Part shown: positions 41,831-50,090 of the stretch, one piece after another
Numbering within the stretch: the stretch's first letter is position 1
Layout of the letters: the number at the start of each line of letters is the position of its first letter
Assembly: GCA_012838315.1 (NCBI GenBank)
Contig: DUPM01000003.1
Span: 62,001 to 126,000, forward strand
Direction: 5' to 3'
DNA from: Clostridiaceae bacterium
GTDB lineage: Bacteria > Bacillota > Clostridia > Saccharofermentanales > Saccharofermentanaceae
DNA length: 64,000 nucleotides
Translations under genes and position numbers: made by a program
The notes under the pieces: model-generated
Databases searched by the model: none
Seen by the model: only the letters and a program-made list of their open reading frames with translations
What the model was told of the DNA's origin: nothing

Positions 41831-42325
41831 TTGAAGACGTTTGTTTTTCCGGGAAGCTTTGATCCGTTTTCTCTGGGTCATCTTGACATTGCGAAGCGAG
41901 CGACGAAACTTTGTGATCGGTTGGTTGTTGCGGTAATGAACAACAGCGTCAAGCATCCTACTTTTACTTCGCAGGAACGCAAGATGATGGCTGAAAAATG
42001 CCTTGAGGGTACACCAGGGATTGAAGTGATTACGCACGATTCGCTTTTAGTTGACTTGTTTGTTAAGGTCGATGCGGCTGCGGTCGTCAGAGGACTTAGA
42101 AGCGAATCAGATTTTCGGAATGAAGCGGAAATGGCAGCTGCCAATAAACTTCTATTGCCGGAATACGATGTTATTCTTTTGCCGTGTAGTGCTGATCTTG
42201 CTTTTACGAGTTCAACAATTATAAAGGAAGTCGCGTTTTACGGCGGTAATATTTCTCGTATGGTTTCGCCGAGTATCGTTGATTTTGTTGCAACAACAAT
42301 CTCGGAAAGGATCAAGAGGGATTAA
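41831..42325 (+). CDS. coaD: phosphopantetheine adenylyltransferase
   Basis: The 164-residue CoaD catalyses the penultimate step of coenzyme A synthesis. It has the nucleotidyl-transferase motif FPGSFDPFSLGHLDIAKRA (about 5-23), VVRGLRSESDF and TSSTIIKEVAFYGG. The start is a TTG at 41831, since no ATG precedes the conserved FVFPGSFDP, with a GGGGGT-like site upstream. Its stop codon overlaps the next possible ATG. Confidence 0.94.
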   Translation: MKTFVFPGSFDPFSLGHLDIAKRATKLCDRLVVAVMNNSVKHPTFTSQERKMMAEKCLEGTPGIEVITHDSLLVDLFVKVDAAAVVRGLRSESDFRNEAEMAAANKLLLPEYDVILLPCSADLAFTSSTIIKEVAFYGGNISRMVSPSIVDFVATTISERIKRD

Positions 42326-42339
42326 TGGAGGGGAATAGT

Positions 42340-42813
42340 ATGCCAGATATGCCACGTCAGTATCGATCCGGTGAAGGAGATATTATCGATTTGCTGGATC
42401 AGCTTCAGTCGACCGTTTCGGAGGCGAAGGGGTTGCCATTTTCCGACAATTGTATTGTTGATAGACAAGATGTATTGTACTGGATTAACCAAATCCGAGA
42501 CGCGCTTCCGGAGGAAGTTCGTCAGGCTCGATGGATTGTGGAGCAGAATCGTCAAGTGGTAGCAAGCGCAAGACAGAAGGCTGAGAGCATACTTCGAGAG
42601 TCTGAACAGCAATCCGCTATGATGATTGATGAACACGAAATTACTATGCAGGCACGTGCTGTAGCGGATAAAATGATTGAGGAAGCGAATCAGACGGCCT
42701 GGGAAATGCGTGTTGCATCAACAGAATACGCAAGACAACGTCTCTCTGATATAGAGAATAATCTTACGGAAATGCTCGTCAAGGTTCAGAAAAACAAAAA
42801 GGAGCTCAAGTAG
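42340..42813 (+). CDS. coiled-coil protein downstream of coaD, function unknown
   Basis: The 157-residue protein is soluble and mostly helical. An N-terminal part (about 10-65) with DIIDLLDQLQSTVSEAKG and DVLYWINQIRDALPEE is followed by a long coiled coil rich in Gln, Glu, Ala and Arg (about 65-155). Similar proteins follow coaD in many Clostridia and are often named ATPase subunit-like, but there is no ATP motif. The resemblance to DivIVA/V-type ATPase stalk coils is only compositional. GGAGGGG before the ATG at 42340 decides the start over 42325. The stop codon lies in a terminator hairpin. Confidence 0.7.
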   Translation: MPDMPRQYRSGEGDIIDLLDQLQSTVSEAKGLPFSDNCIVDRQDVLYWINQIRDALPEEVRQARWIVEQNRQVVASARQKAESILRESEQQSAMMIDEHEITMQARAVADKMIEEANQTAWEMRVASTEYARQRLSDIENNLTEMLVKVQKNKKELK

Positions 42814-42822
42814 CTCCTTTTT
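42796..42822 (+). terminator. terminator overlapping the stop of the coiled-coil gene
   Basis: AAAAAGGAGCT (42796-42806) pairs with AGCTCCTTTTT (42812-42822), a perfect 11-bp stem with a 5-base loop, ending in five T. The 5' arm encodes the last codons, and the stop codon is in the loop. It separates the coaD region from the ATPase/TOPRIM genes, whose RBS starts only 8 bases later, so some read-through is likely. Confidence 0.8.
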
Positions 42823-42842
42823 CTCCATAGGAGGTGAGAATA

Positions 42843-44051
42843 TTGCTTCTTGGCATCAAGATTAATAACTACTCAATATTTCTGGAAGACAAAATCGGCG
42901 CTTTGATAGAGGATTTTCAGTCGGGTCTGGTCAAGGATTCGGCATCACTATCTTCGGGCGCACCTATCGCATTCCCTTTATCCGGCATTAATGCATTGAT
43001 TGGTCGCAATCAGACCGGTAAAAGTCTATTTCTTGATATATTGTCGTTTATTTCCGATTCGACGGTCAAAGGTTGTGCAGAAGCCTCCGTGATTCGTGGT
43101 CGAAAGGGCTTTACGCATCTTGTTGCGAACGTCGATAAACCCATCGACTTTGAAATGTGTTTTGAGATTAATGCAAAAGATACGCCATACAATATGACAA
43201 CCGCGCTTTTGAGTTACCATTTCTCTCTTACGGCAGATGCGCATGGGCGACCATCATACAACCATGAACAAGTTGATGTATATTCCGGTGAAGATTTCTC
43301 TTTGTTACGAACCGTATTGGGTGTTCGGAACGGTAAGGGTATCGTTCGTTTTCGCAATGAAGAAAGCGAAGCAGAAATTTCGGACTCGAGATTTTCGGCT
43401 TTGCGCACTTACGGCAGTATGCCTCAGTGTCCACTACTCAGTCGCATCTTTTATGAGATTTCTCGATGGTACTTTTGCAAATTCTCTTCGCCGAGCAACG
43501 GTAATGGTACACGGACGGCAGTTGCTCCGGGTGGACACAAACATCTCGACAGTTATGGCACGAACGTTCAAAACGTGCTTGATTACATCCGTATAGAAAG
43601 ACCGGATCATTTTGAGCGCTTAACCGAAAGAATTTATGGTAAAATTCCGAGTGTCGGTAAGTTGAAGGACAAACTTCCGGAAAGCTTCAGACAGAGTCCG
43701 AACAAGCTTTTCTTATACTTGCTCTTACTGGAAGATCTTAAGCCGAGGCCATTGATTTGTATAGAGACACCGGATATGGGGCTGTACCACGATATGGTTG
43801 ACGTTTTATCCGCAGAATTGCGCGCATTTTCGATTCGTCATCCGGAGTGTCAGGTTATTTTTACGACGCACAACCCTTATATACTGGAATCCATCGCGCC
43901 CGAAGAGGTATGGATATTTAAAAGAGATACAGAGAACCTTGAAGGTGCTGTAGAAGTCACACCTGCCGCTTCTGATCCGGCTGTCGTAGAAATGTATGAG
44001 CAGGGGGTTGGGATGGGTGCGATTTGGTATGCCGGGCATTTTGATGATTGA
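42843..44051 (+). CDS. AAA_21/OLD-like ABC-type ATPase, degenerate
   Basis: The 402-residue protein is a single ABC/SMC-type ATPase as found with DUF4276 proteins. Walker A is LIGRNQTGKS (about 53-62). The Walker B strand is PLICIETPDMGL (about 302-313), and a switch His follows in FTTHNPYILE (about 340-349). In the usual family the region reads IEEPE with the second Glu catalytic; here that position is Thr. The signature normally near LSDGT appears as SPNKLFLYLLLL. Both changes suggest weak or altered ATP hydrolysis. No TOPRIM domain is fused. The best start is TTG at 42843, six bases after GGAGGTG; a GTG at 42834 overlaps that site. The next gene follows after 32 bases. Confidence 0.75.
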   Translation: MLLGIKINNYSIFLEDKIGALIEDFQSGLVKDSASLSSGAPIAFPLSGINALIGRNQTGKSLFLDILSFISDSTVKGCAEASVIRGRKGFTHLVANVDKPIDFEMCFEINAKDTPYNMTTALLSYHFSLTADAHGRPSYNHEQVDVYSGEDFSLLRTVLGVRNGKGIVRFRNEESEAEISDSRFSALRTYGSMPQCPLLSRIFYEISRWYFCKFSSPSNGNGTRTAVAPGGHKHLDSYGTNVQNVLDYIRIERPDHFERLTERIYGKIPSVGKLKDKLPESFRQSPNKLFLYLLLLEDLKPRPLICIETPDMGLYHDMVDVLSAELRAFSIRHPECQVIFTTHNPYILESIAPEEVWIFKRDTENLEGAVEVTPAASDPAVVEMYEQGVGMGAIWYAGHFDD

Positions 44052-44083
44052 CAACGATTCAAGACAATATATCGAAGGTGTGT

Positions 44084-44755
44084 ATGAGAATAGAAGTATT
44101 GACCGAGGACCGGTCGGGGGGATTGGTGCTTGACCATATTCTTCCGAAAATGATCCGAAAATATAACACAGTTGCCGATGTATTTATTCGGCCGCACCGC
44201 GGATTGGGTGAGTGGCCCGACAACGACAGTGCCGGACCGAGTCCTTTTGCGTCGGGGCTTCTTGAATTATTGCCTGCTAAAATGCGCGCGTATGAGCATG
44301 TTTATGCCGGCACGGCGACAATTGTTCTTGTCGTTATGGATTCGGACAGTCATTCGCCGGCGCAGATTTTTAACCGACTGCGCAGTACGTGCCAAAAAAA
44401 TGCTCCAAATCTAACATATGTCATTGGAGTGTGCGTAGAAGAAATGGAGTCTTGGCTGCTCGCGGACAGGGCGGCAGTTCTTGCTGCGTACCCGGATGCG
44501 GATGTGGTGACACTTGATAAATACGAGCAGGATAGTATTTGTGGGACATGGGAGACGCTCTGTCGCGTTATATTGAAAGAACGTGCAGATCGTACCATTC
44601 GAATCGGTTATCCGGCGGTAGGACAACTCAAAAGCGAGTGGGCCGAAAGGATAGCTCAATACATGGATCCTGAATTGAACAAGTCGCCAAGTTTTGAACG
44701 TTTTTCTCATGCGGTGGATTATGCAGTTCGCGAAATACTGGGATTCCACCAATGA
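44084..44755 (+). CDS. DUF4276-like TOPRIM protein, partner of the ATPase
   Basis: The 223-residue protein shows the TOPRIM layout of the DUF4276 family: an N-terminal strand with a conserved Glu (IEVLTEDRSG, residues 3-12), a middle DxD strand (IVLVVMDSDSHSP, about 90), and the motif GVCVEEMESWLLAD (about 124-137). TOPRIM domains bind metal for DNA or RNA cleavage, ligation or synthesis. In two-gene ATPase/TOPRIM systems the ATPase senses a trigger and releases the nuclease. The ATG at 44084 with GAAGGTG upstream is the best start; an upstream TTG at 44048 is possible. Its stop overlaps the hemW start by four bases (ATGA), so the gene is translationally tied to a housekeeping gene. Confidence 0.7.
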   Translation: MRIEVLTEDRSGGLVLDHILPKMIRKYNTVADVFIRPHRGLGEWPDNDSAGPSPFASGLLELLPAKMRAYEHVYAGTATIVLVVMDSDSHSPAQIFNRLRSTCQKNAPNLTYVIGVCVEEMESWLLADRAAVLAAYPDADVVTLDKYEQDSICGTWETLCRVILKERADRTIRIGYPAVGQLKSEWAERIAQYMDPELNKSPSFERFSHAVDYAVREILGFHQ

Positions 44756-45906
44756 GTTGTGTAACGTCGGCCTACATCCATATTCCGTTTTGTGCAAGCA
44801 AATGCCTTTACTGTGATTTCACTTCTTTTGCGGGGAAAGAAGCGGATATTGATAAATATGTCGACGCACTCATTGCTGAAATGCAAATGTTCGTTAGTTT
44901 CCGAGCAACTGATTCTTCGGATGTGTTGCAGCCACTTCGGACACTCTATATCGGTGGTGGAACTCCATCATTACTTTCGGGAAGACAGATTTTCCGAATT
45001 GTTGATGCTGCACGTCAACTCTTTTGTTTTGATTCTGACCCCGAAATTTCGGTAGAAATAAACCCGAACACAGTGGACAACAATTTTCTGCGCTCGTTCA
45101 TTGCCGCCGGCGGCAACAGAGTATCGCTTGGCGTCCAATCTCTCAATGACGCACTTCTTGTCTGTATGGGCAGAGCACATTCTGCTTCAGAGGCTATAGA
45201 TGCGATCAATTTAATCCAAAAAGCAGGCATTACGAACATCTCTTGTGATTTGATTATCGGTCTTCCCAATCAAAAAATAGAACAAGTTATTTCTGACACG
45301 GATACGTTGATTCGAAAAGGAATCAAACATATTTCGATTTACTCTCTATCTATAGAAGAAGGAACGGTTTTTGAACAAAAATATGCAGACTTGATCGAGC
45401 GATTGATGCCGCAGGCATATGAAAGAGAAATGTATCATGCCGTTCGCAGACATTTGTTATCTGAGGGCTATGAACATTATGAAATCAGCAATTTTGCGCT
45501 TCCCGGATATGAGAGCCGTCACAACAGCATGTATTGGAGCGCTTCGGAGTATTACGGCTTTGGCTTGGCGGCGCATTCCTATTTTCATTCGGAGCGAATT
45601 GGTCATGTTGAAGATTTGAACACATATATTGCGCGCGCATATGACGATTTAGATGCTATAGTGTCCGAGCGCGTCGTCATTGACGAGGAAGAAAAAATGA
45701 AAGAATTTTTTCTGCTTGGACTTCGAATGATTGAGGGCGTGAGTGTTAATGATTATAAAGATCGCTTCGGGGATTTACCGATTCATCTTCATCGTCTGCT
45801 TGAGAAGCATGTTTCTGAGGGCTTGCTTGAGCACCAATCTGATCGCTATTATCTCACCGAAACCGGCCTGGATTTTGCCAATCTCGTTTTCAGAGATTTT
45901 GTTTGA
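44752..45906 (+). CDS. hemW: heme chaperone HemW (radical SAM family)
   Basis: The 384-residue protein has the radical SAM cluster motif CASKCLYC (about 14-21, with the preceding YIHIPFC), GGGTPSLL, and EINPNTV. It resembles oxygen-independent coproporphyrinogen oxidase. The short N-terminus starting directly before YIHIPFC, and the location before hrcA, favour HemW, which inserts heme into proteins, over true HemN. HemW is the usual upstream neighbour of hrcA in Firmicutes. The stop codon lies inside the -35 box of the hrcA promoter. Confidence 0.88.
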   Translation: MSCVTSAYIHIPFCASKCLYCDFTSFAGKEADIDKYVDALIAEMQMFVSFRATDSSDVLQPLRTLYIGGGTPSLLSGRQIFRIVDAARQLFCFDSDPEISVEINPNTVDNNFLRSFIAAGGNRVSLGVQSLNDALLVCMGRAHSASEAIDAINLIQKAGITNISCDLIIGLPNQKIEQVISDTDTLIRKGIKHISIYSLSIEEGTVFEQKYADLIERLMPQAYEREMYHAVRRHLLSEGYEHYEISNFALPGYESRHNSMYWSASEYYGFGLAAHSYFHSERIGHVEDLNTYIARAYDDLDAIVSERVVIDEEEKMKEFFLLGLRMIEGVSVNDYKDRFGDLPIHLHRLLEKHVSEGLLEHQSDRYYLTETGLDFANLVFRDFV

Positions 45907-47050: not shown

Positions 47051-47605
47051 ATGGCTAAATCTAAAAACAACAAGGCGGCGCGCGAAGAAGAAATCGAAAA
47101 GGATCGAGAGGAGGTTCAACTTGAGACTCCGCTTGATGAGGTAGAGGAGCAAATCGATACCGTATCTGCTGAAGAGTTCAAGTCACTTACGGATCAACAT
47201 CTCAGATTGCTTGCTGAATATGACAATTATCGTAAACGTACGAATAAGGAAAAAGAGTCTCTGTATGCGGAGGCCTTGGCGGAGATAGCCAAAGAATTTT
47301 TGCCTGTTGTAGACAATATTGAACGCGCAATTTACCATTCACAAAACATATCGGATACGACGGCTTCAAAGGTAGCCGAAGGTATAGATATGATTTATCG
47401 ACAGGTGCAAGACGTTTTTGATAAGCTGGGTATCGAGCCCATAGATTGTGATGAAGGATCTGCTTTTGATCCGGAGTTGCACGAGGCGGTTATGCACGTA
47501 GAGGATGAAGAATTTGGAGAGCAGTGCATTGTACAGGTTTTTCAAAAAGGATATAAAGCGAAGGACAAAATTATTCGTCATACCGTTGTGAAGGTAGCAA
47601 ACTAA
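47051..47605 (+). CDS. grpE: nucleotide exchange factor GrpE
   Basis: The 184-residue GrpE has an acidic, charged N-terminus, a long helix pair (SLTDQHLRLLAEYDNYRKR), and the C-terminal beta domain with ELHEAVMHVEDEE and GYKAKDKIIRHTVVKV. It releases ADP from DnaK. The start codon follows the hrcA stop without a gap (TAA ATG), and GGAGG of the RBS lies in the end of hrcA. Confidence 0.94.
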   Translation: MAKSKNNKAAREEEIEKDREEVQLETPLDEVEEQIDTVSAEEFKSLTDQHLRLLAEYDNYRKRTNKEKESLYAEALAEIAKEFLPVVDNIERAIYHSQNISDTTASKVAEGIDMIYRQVQDVFDKLGIEPIDCDEGSAFDPELHEAVMHVEDEEFGEQCIVQVFQKGYKAKDKIIRHTVVKVAN

Positions 47606-47623
47606 ATTATGAGGAGAAATTTT

Positions 47624-48229
47624 ATGACACGTGAAAGCATCCAATCCAGTTTGGTCCCGACCGTCATTGAATCGACAAACCGTGGTGAAAGAGCCTACGA
47701 TATTTTTTCGAGATTGCTCAAGGAGAGAATTATTATTCTGTCTGAGGAAGTCAATCATGTGACAGCAAGTTTAATTACTGCGCAGTTTCTTTTTCTCGAA
47801 GCAGAAGACCCGGATAAGGATATTCAGTTTTACATCAACAGCCCCGGTGGTTCGGTTTCAGATGGCATGATGATTTACGATACGATGCAACATATCAAGC
47901 CGGATGTTCAGACCATTGGAATGGGTATGGCAGCTTCAATGGGTTCGTTTCTTTTGGCAGCCGGTGCAAAGGGCAAGAGATTCATTCTGCCGAATGCTGA
48001 GGTAATGATTCATCAGCCATCGAGCGGCACGCAAGGGCAGGCCAGCGATATTGAGATTGCGGCAAAGCACATTATTAAGATGAGAGAAAAACTCAACCGA
48101 TTGATGTCAGACATGACCGGACAGAAGATTGAAGTCATCGAAAAGGACATGGATAGAGACAATTGGATGACGGCTGAAGAGGCCATGAAGTATGGCATCG
48201 TCGACCACATCATGACGAAGAAAAACTAA
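47624..48229 (+). CDS. clpP: ATP-dependent Clp protease proteolytic subunit
   Basis: The 201-residue ClpP has the Ser-His-Asp triad at Ser105 (GMAASMGS), His130 (VMIHQPSSG) and probably Asp179 (MDRDNWM). Other motifs are the N-terminal [12 protein letters not shown] and [15 protein letters not shown]. It forms the 14-mer degradation chamber used with ClpX or ClpC. GAGGAGA before the ATG at 47624 fixes the start. It sits between grpE and dnaK, where no gene normally occurs, so it should be induced by heat together with the DnaK system. It is intact, and its codon use looks like its neighbours. Confidence 0.95.
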
Positions 48230-48254
48230 TTAATTTCAAATGGAGGATAAATTT

Positions 48255-50090
48255 ATGGCAAAAGTAATTGGAATTGACCTTGGAACGACAAACTCTTGCG
48301 TTGCGGTTATGGAGGGCGGCGAGGCCGTCGTTATTCCGAATCCGGAAGGCAACAGAACGACACCATCTGTCGTTGCATTTTCTAAAACCGGAGAGCGCTT
48401 GGTTGGCCAGGTCGCGAAGCGTCAGGCTGTAACCAACCCGGATCGTACTGTTCAATCCATCAAAAGAGAGATGGGAACGAACTTTAAGGTTAGCATTGAT
48501 GACAAGCAGTATTCGCCACAGGAGATATCTGCAATGATTTTGACGAAGCTTAAGCAAGATGCCGAAGCTTATCTGGGTCAGCCCGTTGAACAGGTGGTCA
48601 TTACTGTACCGGCATATTTTTCGGATGCTCAGCGTCAGGCGACCAAGGATGCGGGCAAGATTGCCGGTCTTGAGGTACTGCGTATTATCAATGAGCCGAC
48701 TGCAGCTTCGTTGGCATACGGTCTGGATAAAGAGAGCGACCAGAAAATTCTTGTTTTCGACTTGGGCGGCGGTACGTTTGACGTGTCTATTCTTGAAATC
48801 GGCGACGGTGTTTTTGAAGTTCTCGCCACTGCCGGTAACAACAGATTGGGTGGTGACGATTTTGACAACCGCATCGTAGACTACCTTGTAGATTCATTTA
48901 AAAAGGAGCAGAGCGTTGATCTTCGTGGGGATAAGATGGCTATGCAACGTCTTCGTGAGGCAGCGGAGAAAGCCAAAATCGAGCTTTCCGGAGTGACTTC
49001 GACCAATATTAATCTCGCCTACATCACTGCAGACGCGACCGGACCAAAACACATGGATATGAATTTGACTCGCGCGAAGTTTGACGAGTTGACGGGGGAT
49101 CTTGTTGAGAAGACGATGGAACCTCTGAAGCGCGCCATGAGTGATTCCGGTGTTGCCCCGAGCGATATTCACAAGATTTTGTTGGTCGGTGGATCAACGC
49201 GTATTCCTGCGGTCCAAGATGCGGTTAAAAAATATTTTGGTAAAGAGCCATTCAAAGGAATCAACCCAGACGAGTGCGTTGCTGTCGGAGCTGCGATTCA
49301 AGCTGCAGTATTGACCGGTGAAGTAAAAGGCTTGCTGTTATTAGATGTTACGCCGCTCTCTTTGGGAATTGAGACACAAGGTGGCGTATTCACCAAAATG
49401 ATTGAAAGAAATACGACGATTCCCTCCAAGAAGAGTCAAGTTTTCTCAACTGCCGCTGATGGGCAGACGCAAGTTGACGTTCACGTTCTCCAAGGTGAGC
49501 GTGAGATGGCTACGTACAATAAGACACTTGGAAACTTTATTCTCGACGGCATTGCACCTGCTCCCAGAGGCGTGCCTCAGATTGAGGTTACTTTCGACAT
49601 TGATGCAAATGGTATTGTTCACGTTACGGCTAAGGATATGGGTACCGGTCGTGAGCAAAAGATTACAATTACTGCTTCTACAAACATGACGGAAGATGAG
49701 ATTCAAAAGGCGGTTAAGGATGCGGAACTTCATGCTGCTGAGGATTCAAAGCGCAAGGAAGAAATTGAAATAAAAAATCATGCAGAGTCCTCGGTCTATC
49801 AGACTGAGAAGACGCTGACGGATCTCGCAGATAAAATTGAAGCCGCAGATCGTGCCCCGGTCGACGAAGCACTTGAGCGTCTTAAGGCAGCGATTGCGGC
49901 CGATAACTACGACGATATGAAGAAAGAGACCGAAGCCGTACAACAGGCATTTTACAAAATCAGTGAAAAAATTTATTCGCAAGGTAACCCACAGGGTGGC
50001 GAAGGCCAACCGAGTCCTGAGGACTTCACCGGATACCAGGATCAGAATCCGGATTCAGAGGGATTTAAGAACGCCGGCGGCGATTTCTGA
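48255..50090 (+). CDS. dnaK: molecular chaperone DnaK (Hsp70)
   Basis: The 611-residue Hsp70 has [19 protein letters not shown] at the N-terminus, [17 protein letters not shown], the hinge [12 protein letters not shown], and [13 protein letters not shown] in the ATPase domain, and the substrate domain from [17 protein letters not shown]. The C-terminal lid is present, with a Gly/Pro/Gln-rich end. GGAGGA seven bases before the ATG at 48255 fixes the start; an ATG 15 bases upstream is part of the RBS region. Confidence 0.97.

Follow-up and report, generated by a model that had tools for sequence, protein, structure and literature searches.

A HEC-01-like gene pair beside hemW with a degenerate ABC ATPase and an intact predicted TOPRIM site points to domestication of a candidate defense module

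A pair of adjacent genes that match the candidate defense system HEC-01 is inherited vertically beside hemW in an order of Clostridia, and its evolution points to a mobile defense module that turned into a permanent cellular function. It is this evolution, and not the existence of the pair, that is new. The genes lie in a window of 64,000 nucleotides (the whole stretch of DNA that was analyzed) on contig DUPM01000003.1 of a Clostridiaceae bacterium assigned to the Saccharofermentanaceae in the order Saccharofermentanales, and they encode an OLD-type ABC ATPase followed by a TOPRIM-like protein. Our working interpretation, which we hold to be just on the probable side, is that of a domesticated HEC-01 pair whose ABC subunit, being hydrolysis-dead, would gate an active TOPRIM nuclease in a cellular role. 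The domestication of the pair is well supported; its mechanism and substrate are what we infer on top of it.

The first gene (42843 to 44051; both genes and all their motifs are on the forward strand) encodes an OLD-type ABC ATPase-like protein of 402 aa that resembles HEC-01A, and the second (44084 to 44755) a TOPRIM-like predicted nuclease of 223 aa that resembles HEC-01B and DUF4276. Both open reading frames are real, and a first-pass annotation made from the letters of the window had the order of an ABC-type ATPase gene and a TOPRIM-type gene, their reading frames, coordinates and motifs right. Translation of the ATPase starts from a TTG at 42843 preceded by the ribosome-binding site AGGAGGTG (42829 to 42836), and genome G001 has the identical ribosome-binding site and TTG start. 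For the second gene we chose the ATG at 44084 over an upstream TTG at 44048 because most homologues begin at residue 13 of the query. In Pfam, the ATPase matches AAA_21 (4e-16) and AAA_15 (6e-9), and the TOPRIM protein reaches 24.7 bits against DUF4276, under the curated gathering cut-off of 30.2, so that the earlier label "DUF4276-like" is a fair one for a sub-threshold match. The TOPRIM stop codon overlaps the start of hemW in an ATGA (44752 to 44755), as had been noticed before. This gene (44752 to 45906, forward strand; TIGR00539, 6e-89) is the constant downstream neighbor, with a gap of no more than 50 nt in 65 of 68 loci of the window's family.

On both sides the pair is embedded in a run of housekeeping genes in the order nth, recG, rsmD, coaD, a 162-aa gene, the pair, hemW, hrcA, grpE, clpP and dnaK, and NCBIfam confirms all those that are named. 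The base use of the pair is native (GC of 0.45 and 0.49 versus 0.43 to 0.48 in the neighbors), and no defense island surrounds it, both as originally read. The 162-aa gene (42325 to 42810), which separates coaD from the pair, matches no Pfam or NCBIfam family; it is 97.5% identical across two members of the window's genus (dN 0.013) and is found in most loci of the window's family with upstream data. At its end sits a bidirectional terminator-like hairpin of 11 bp (42796 to 42822; -17.3 kcal/mol, z -3.2) whose loop region contains the stop codon of this preceding gene. In the window's genus the hairpin divides the coaD unit from the pair; it is present in G001 and absent in genus g5, and a conserved terminator ahead of the pair can be dismissed as it was seen only in the window's genus. 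Further downstream, clpP lies between grpE and dnaK (47051 to 50090) in the window's family, an arrangement that was not seen in families f2, f3 and f4.

PADLOC models place the pair in a known candidate system, with the ATPase matching HEC-01A (1.5e-60) and the TOPRIM protein HEC-01B (1.9e-60), and the window pair shares both genes, their order and their adjacency with HEC-01. It differs in its chromosomal core site before hemW, in its vertical inheritance and in an ATPase that has neither catalytic glutamate nor signature. HEC stands for "Hma-embedded candidate", and these candidates reportedly come from Payne et al. 2021. Several of them, including HEC-06, displayed antiviral activity (PMC12988326), and our literature search returned no report testing the antiviral activity of HEC-01 itself and no mention of DUF4276. 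The pair is an already catalogued candidate system, and the first-pass annotation was therefore mistaken in proposing an undescribed one. Its idea of a distinct PARIS-like pair fared no better, since the PADLOC AriA models match the ATPase weakly (3e-13) and the AriB models do not match the second gene, on which ground we reject PARIS membership. What the two systems do share is the general OLD/PARIS-like pairing that had been recognized from the start, i.e., an OLD-ABC ATPase and a TOPRIM protein encoded by separate genes with the ATPase first, though the window pair has no phage context. Gabija is likewise excluded: GajA joins OLD-ABC and TOPRIM in one fused protein and is accompanied by the GajB helicase, neither of which was found at the window pair, where two separate genes have the 162-aa gene and hemW as neighbors. 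No established non-defense family took in both proteins.

The AF2 model of the ATPase (pLDDT 86) has OLD, GajA and retron Eco8 as its best structural matches, with OLD nuclease 6p74 as the best match in the PDB (E 1.4e-10), and thus appears to adopt an OLD-ABC fold that holds Walker A and the switch histidine. In NCBIfam its best match is a weak one to MAD3 (45 bits versus a cut-off of 420), a faint likeness to the proteins of MADS3. The model of the TOPRIM protein (pLDDT 90) shows a TOPRIM-like order of elements with a glutamate after strand 1 and a DxD motif after strand 3; it had no match at E <= 0.001 in a fold search of the PDB, and a sequence search of the PDB gave no relevant match. Among viral models in BFVD, the best named match of similar size was an RloB-like phage protein, and this likeness is weak (E 0.025). 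Nuclease activity of the TOPRIM protein is accordingly a prediction from residues and topology.

The pair is anything but a chance arrangement because about 138 genomes have the two genes side by side. Across the order, the TOPRIM gene is present in 138 and the ATPase gene in 139 of 188 genomes, adjacent wherever the contig permits and nearly always in single copy. By counts made by hand from the order-wide TOPRIM search, 108 of 115 genomes of the window's family carry the pair, all seven without it are less than 90% complete, and every genome of at least 90% completeness has it (66/66). The search profile is sensitive enough to find the five closest mobile relatives at E 1e-49 or better, and there was no match at E <= 1e-10 in 378 genomes that belong to the class but not to the order; a sample of the phylum gave four weak, sporadic cases. 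As the survey that had been suggested for relatives bore out, the two genes stay together as a conserved unit next to hemW, which adjoins the TOPRIM gene in 97 of 98 loci from four families (inverted in one) and was not found in the last locus. Upstream genes are also constant in the window's family where they are covered and recognizable; most loci of the other families have an SPFH/NfeD pair or an M28-type peptidase upstream, as read from the sequences rather than by family search. In genomes of the order that do not have the pair, genes of these same upstream types stand immediately ahead of hemW, and hrcA mostly comes next. The single-contig genome G028 of family f4 has neither the pair nor a recognizable hemW.

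With mobile relatives as the root, families f1, f2 and f4 as well as the sampled genera form groups in the tree of the pair, and a tree of hemW and hrcA recovers the same groups with the pair-less genera nested inside; family f3 does not form one group in either tree. Because the site is constant, the two trees agree and pair-less genera keep the same neighbors, we conclude that the pair descends vertically, with losses. On the hemW and hrcA tree, its presence and absence require at least four gains or losses, and it has been lost in several genera (g7, g10, g15, g16, g18 and g19), i.e., outside the window's family, where it is therefore dispensable. Recent horizontal acquisition is excluded by the constant site, the agreement of the trees and the native base composition.

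The variable location that marks mobile or island-borne defense genes is found among more distant copies of the pair, in contrast to the fixed hemW site of the window pair. In mobile pairs the TOPRIM protein is about 32 to 35% identical to that of the window, and the mobile relatives match the HEC-01 models at 1e-83 to 1e-199. On a conjugative Pseudomonas plasmid, one pair has type IV secretion genes on one side and mobF on the other, two viral contigs and one fecal phage-labelled contig carry others, and a more distant pair on a Persicobacter plasmid sits beside genes that read as type I restriction. A Rahnella plasmid carries an intact HEC-01 pair, too (L098:6718-8660), in a region that is prophage-like and between antitermination and lysis genes.

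It is in the ATPase that the window's family departs from these copies. The first-pass annotation was correct about Walker A (GRNQTGKS, 43002 to 43025; GRNxxGK[ST] in 70/70 sequences of the family) and the switch histidine (H343, 43869 to 43871; kept in 70/70), but it took Walker B as normal, when in fact the Walker B region ICIETPD (43755 to 43775, with the terminal E-T-P-D at 43764 to 43775) has Thr309 (43767 to 43769) at the position of the catalytic glutamate. The ABC signature is degenerate, too, reading FRQSPNK (43686 to 43706) where mobile relatives have MSDGTLK. The window's ATPase thus has neither the signature nor the glutamate after Walker B that characterize a hydrolytic ABC ATPase. 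Throughout its family, the glutamate position is occupied by T, S or A (70/70) and none of the commonest patterns listed still shows the signature, with Walker A and the switch histidine retained, whereas mobile or sporadic ATPases keep both the SDGT signature and the glutamate in 11 of 11 cases. Elsewhere in the order, f4 has N or A in place of the glutamate, f2 is mixed and f3, whose two fully canonical members are basal branches, mostly keeps it, and on the hemW and hrcA tree the loss of the glutamate amounts to at least six changes. Since signature and catalytic glutamate are lost and Walker A and switch histidine kept, the ABC subunit of the window's family should, going by these residues, bind nucleotide without hydrolyzing it. 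The TOPRIM protein has the glutamate after strand 1, the DxD after strand 3 and further acids of a TOPRIM site, and its residues E8, D9, D86, D88, E119, E120, E122 and K183 are identical in 99 of 99 sequences of the order. Between two members of the window's genus, the ATPase has a dN of 0.090 and the TOPRIM gene one of 0.119, versus 0.118 for recG, 0.112 for nth and 0.193 for hemW; dS between these two genomes is saturated, which makes dN/dS ratios rough.

How such a pair may work can be drawn from better-known systems. GajA has no ATPase activity, and its nuclease is inhibited, with involvement of the switch histidine, when the ABC domain binds ATP or nucleotide (PMC8136825), a hydrolysis-negative ABC gate that resembles what the window ATPase would provide. 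In PARIS, the ABC protein keeps the TOPRIM effector inactive, and the active site of AriB resembles RNase M5 (PMC12409363). Gating by a hydrolysis-dead ABC subunit is favored because the window's ATPase keeps the GajA-type sensing residues without those for hydrolysis and because the ABC protein of PARIS restrains its effector. We therefore envisage that an OLD-ABC/TOPRIM pair of the mobile-element type entered the ancestor of the order beside hemW and was passed on vertically as a core gene pair from then on. The ABC subunit of the window's family has lost signature and catalytic glutamate and would bind nucleotide without hydrolysis, and its TOPRIM partner retains what is predicted to be a complete two-metal acidic site. 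The two proteins would form a complex in which the nuclease stays inactive as long as nucleotide is bound and is released once nucleotide levels drop or a ligand binds, as reported for the hydrolysis-negative GajA. The freed nuclease might then act on cellular nucleic acid in a constitutive role in stress or maintenance, the least certain part of the scheme; RNA as its substrate, in analogy to AriB or RNase M5, is a guess. We put forward only tentatively, as something that falls short of probable, the fuller version in which a single exaptation in the order's ancestor turned the candidate defense pair into a housekeeping nucleic-acid enzyme, with a hydrolysis-dead, nucleotide-binding ABC protein regulating an active TOPRIM nuclease. 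Decay of its motifs might also have left the ATPase as a mere scaffold that does not sense nucleotide.

The vertical retention of the pair, its fixed site and its housekeeping-like rate of change make us favor a cellular over an antiviral role, which the first-pass annotation had already allowed for as its alternative and to which distribution, site and trees now lend weight. Long vertical retention could also preserve an antiviral role, however, and the most serious rival, although unlikely in our view, is a resident guardian that is still antiviral, in which an abortive TOPRIM toxin is held by an ABC antitoxin or sensor and inherited at a fixed site. Membership in a candidate defense family with copies in a prophage-like region, on a conjugative plasmid and on viral contigs, the same pairing in PARIS and the intact TOPRIM site speak for it, and losses of the whole unit in several genera would suit a dispensable immune gene. 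Yet the pair of the window's family occupies one site in all near-complete genomes and follows the tree of housekeeping genes, its amino acids change no faster than those of recG or nth, and the repeated loss of hydrolysis residues is not seen in mobile copies.

Mere addiction, in which a cell that loses the ABC antitoxin ahead of the TOPRIM toxin dies and the host gains nothing, is improbable. AriA is indeed named "antitoxin" in PDB entries, the genes overlap or lie close together, and the ATPase may need binding alone and not hydrolysis. Addiction modules normally decay through mutations that inactivate the toxin, though, and here the TOPRIM residues are intact throughout the order and the pair has disappeared cleanly on at least several occasions. 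That the pair replaces a missing housekeeping enzyme is the least credible reading: although RNase M5, a TOPRIM enzyme, is above cut-off in 0 of 39 relatives and the AriB site resembles it, a stand-in for M5 is weak since pair-less members of the order lack M5 as well and it is patchy in the class (above cut-off in 8 of 60 genomes), and a stand-in for the ABC and TOPRIM proteins RecF and RecR is rejected because both are present (39/39 and 37/39 relatives). Separately, the lack of RNase M5 in the relatives searched would bear on 5S rRNA maturation in this order.

Defense systems are usually patchy and mobile. Here, a candidate defense pair belongs to the fixed core of a bacterial family and combines parallel loss of hydrolysis residues with an untouched nuclease site. 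Programs that call defense systems will probably score this vertically inherited core pair as defense in the genomes of the family. At the same time, the domestication of an OLD-ABC/TOPRIM pair and the role of a non-hydrolyzing OLD-ABC protein become directly testable.
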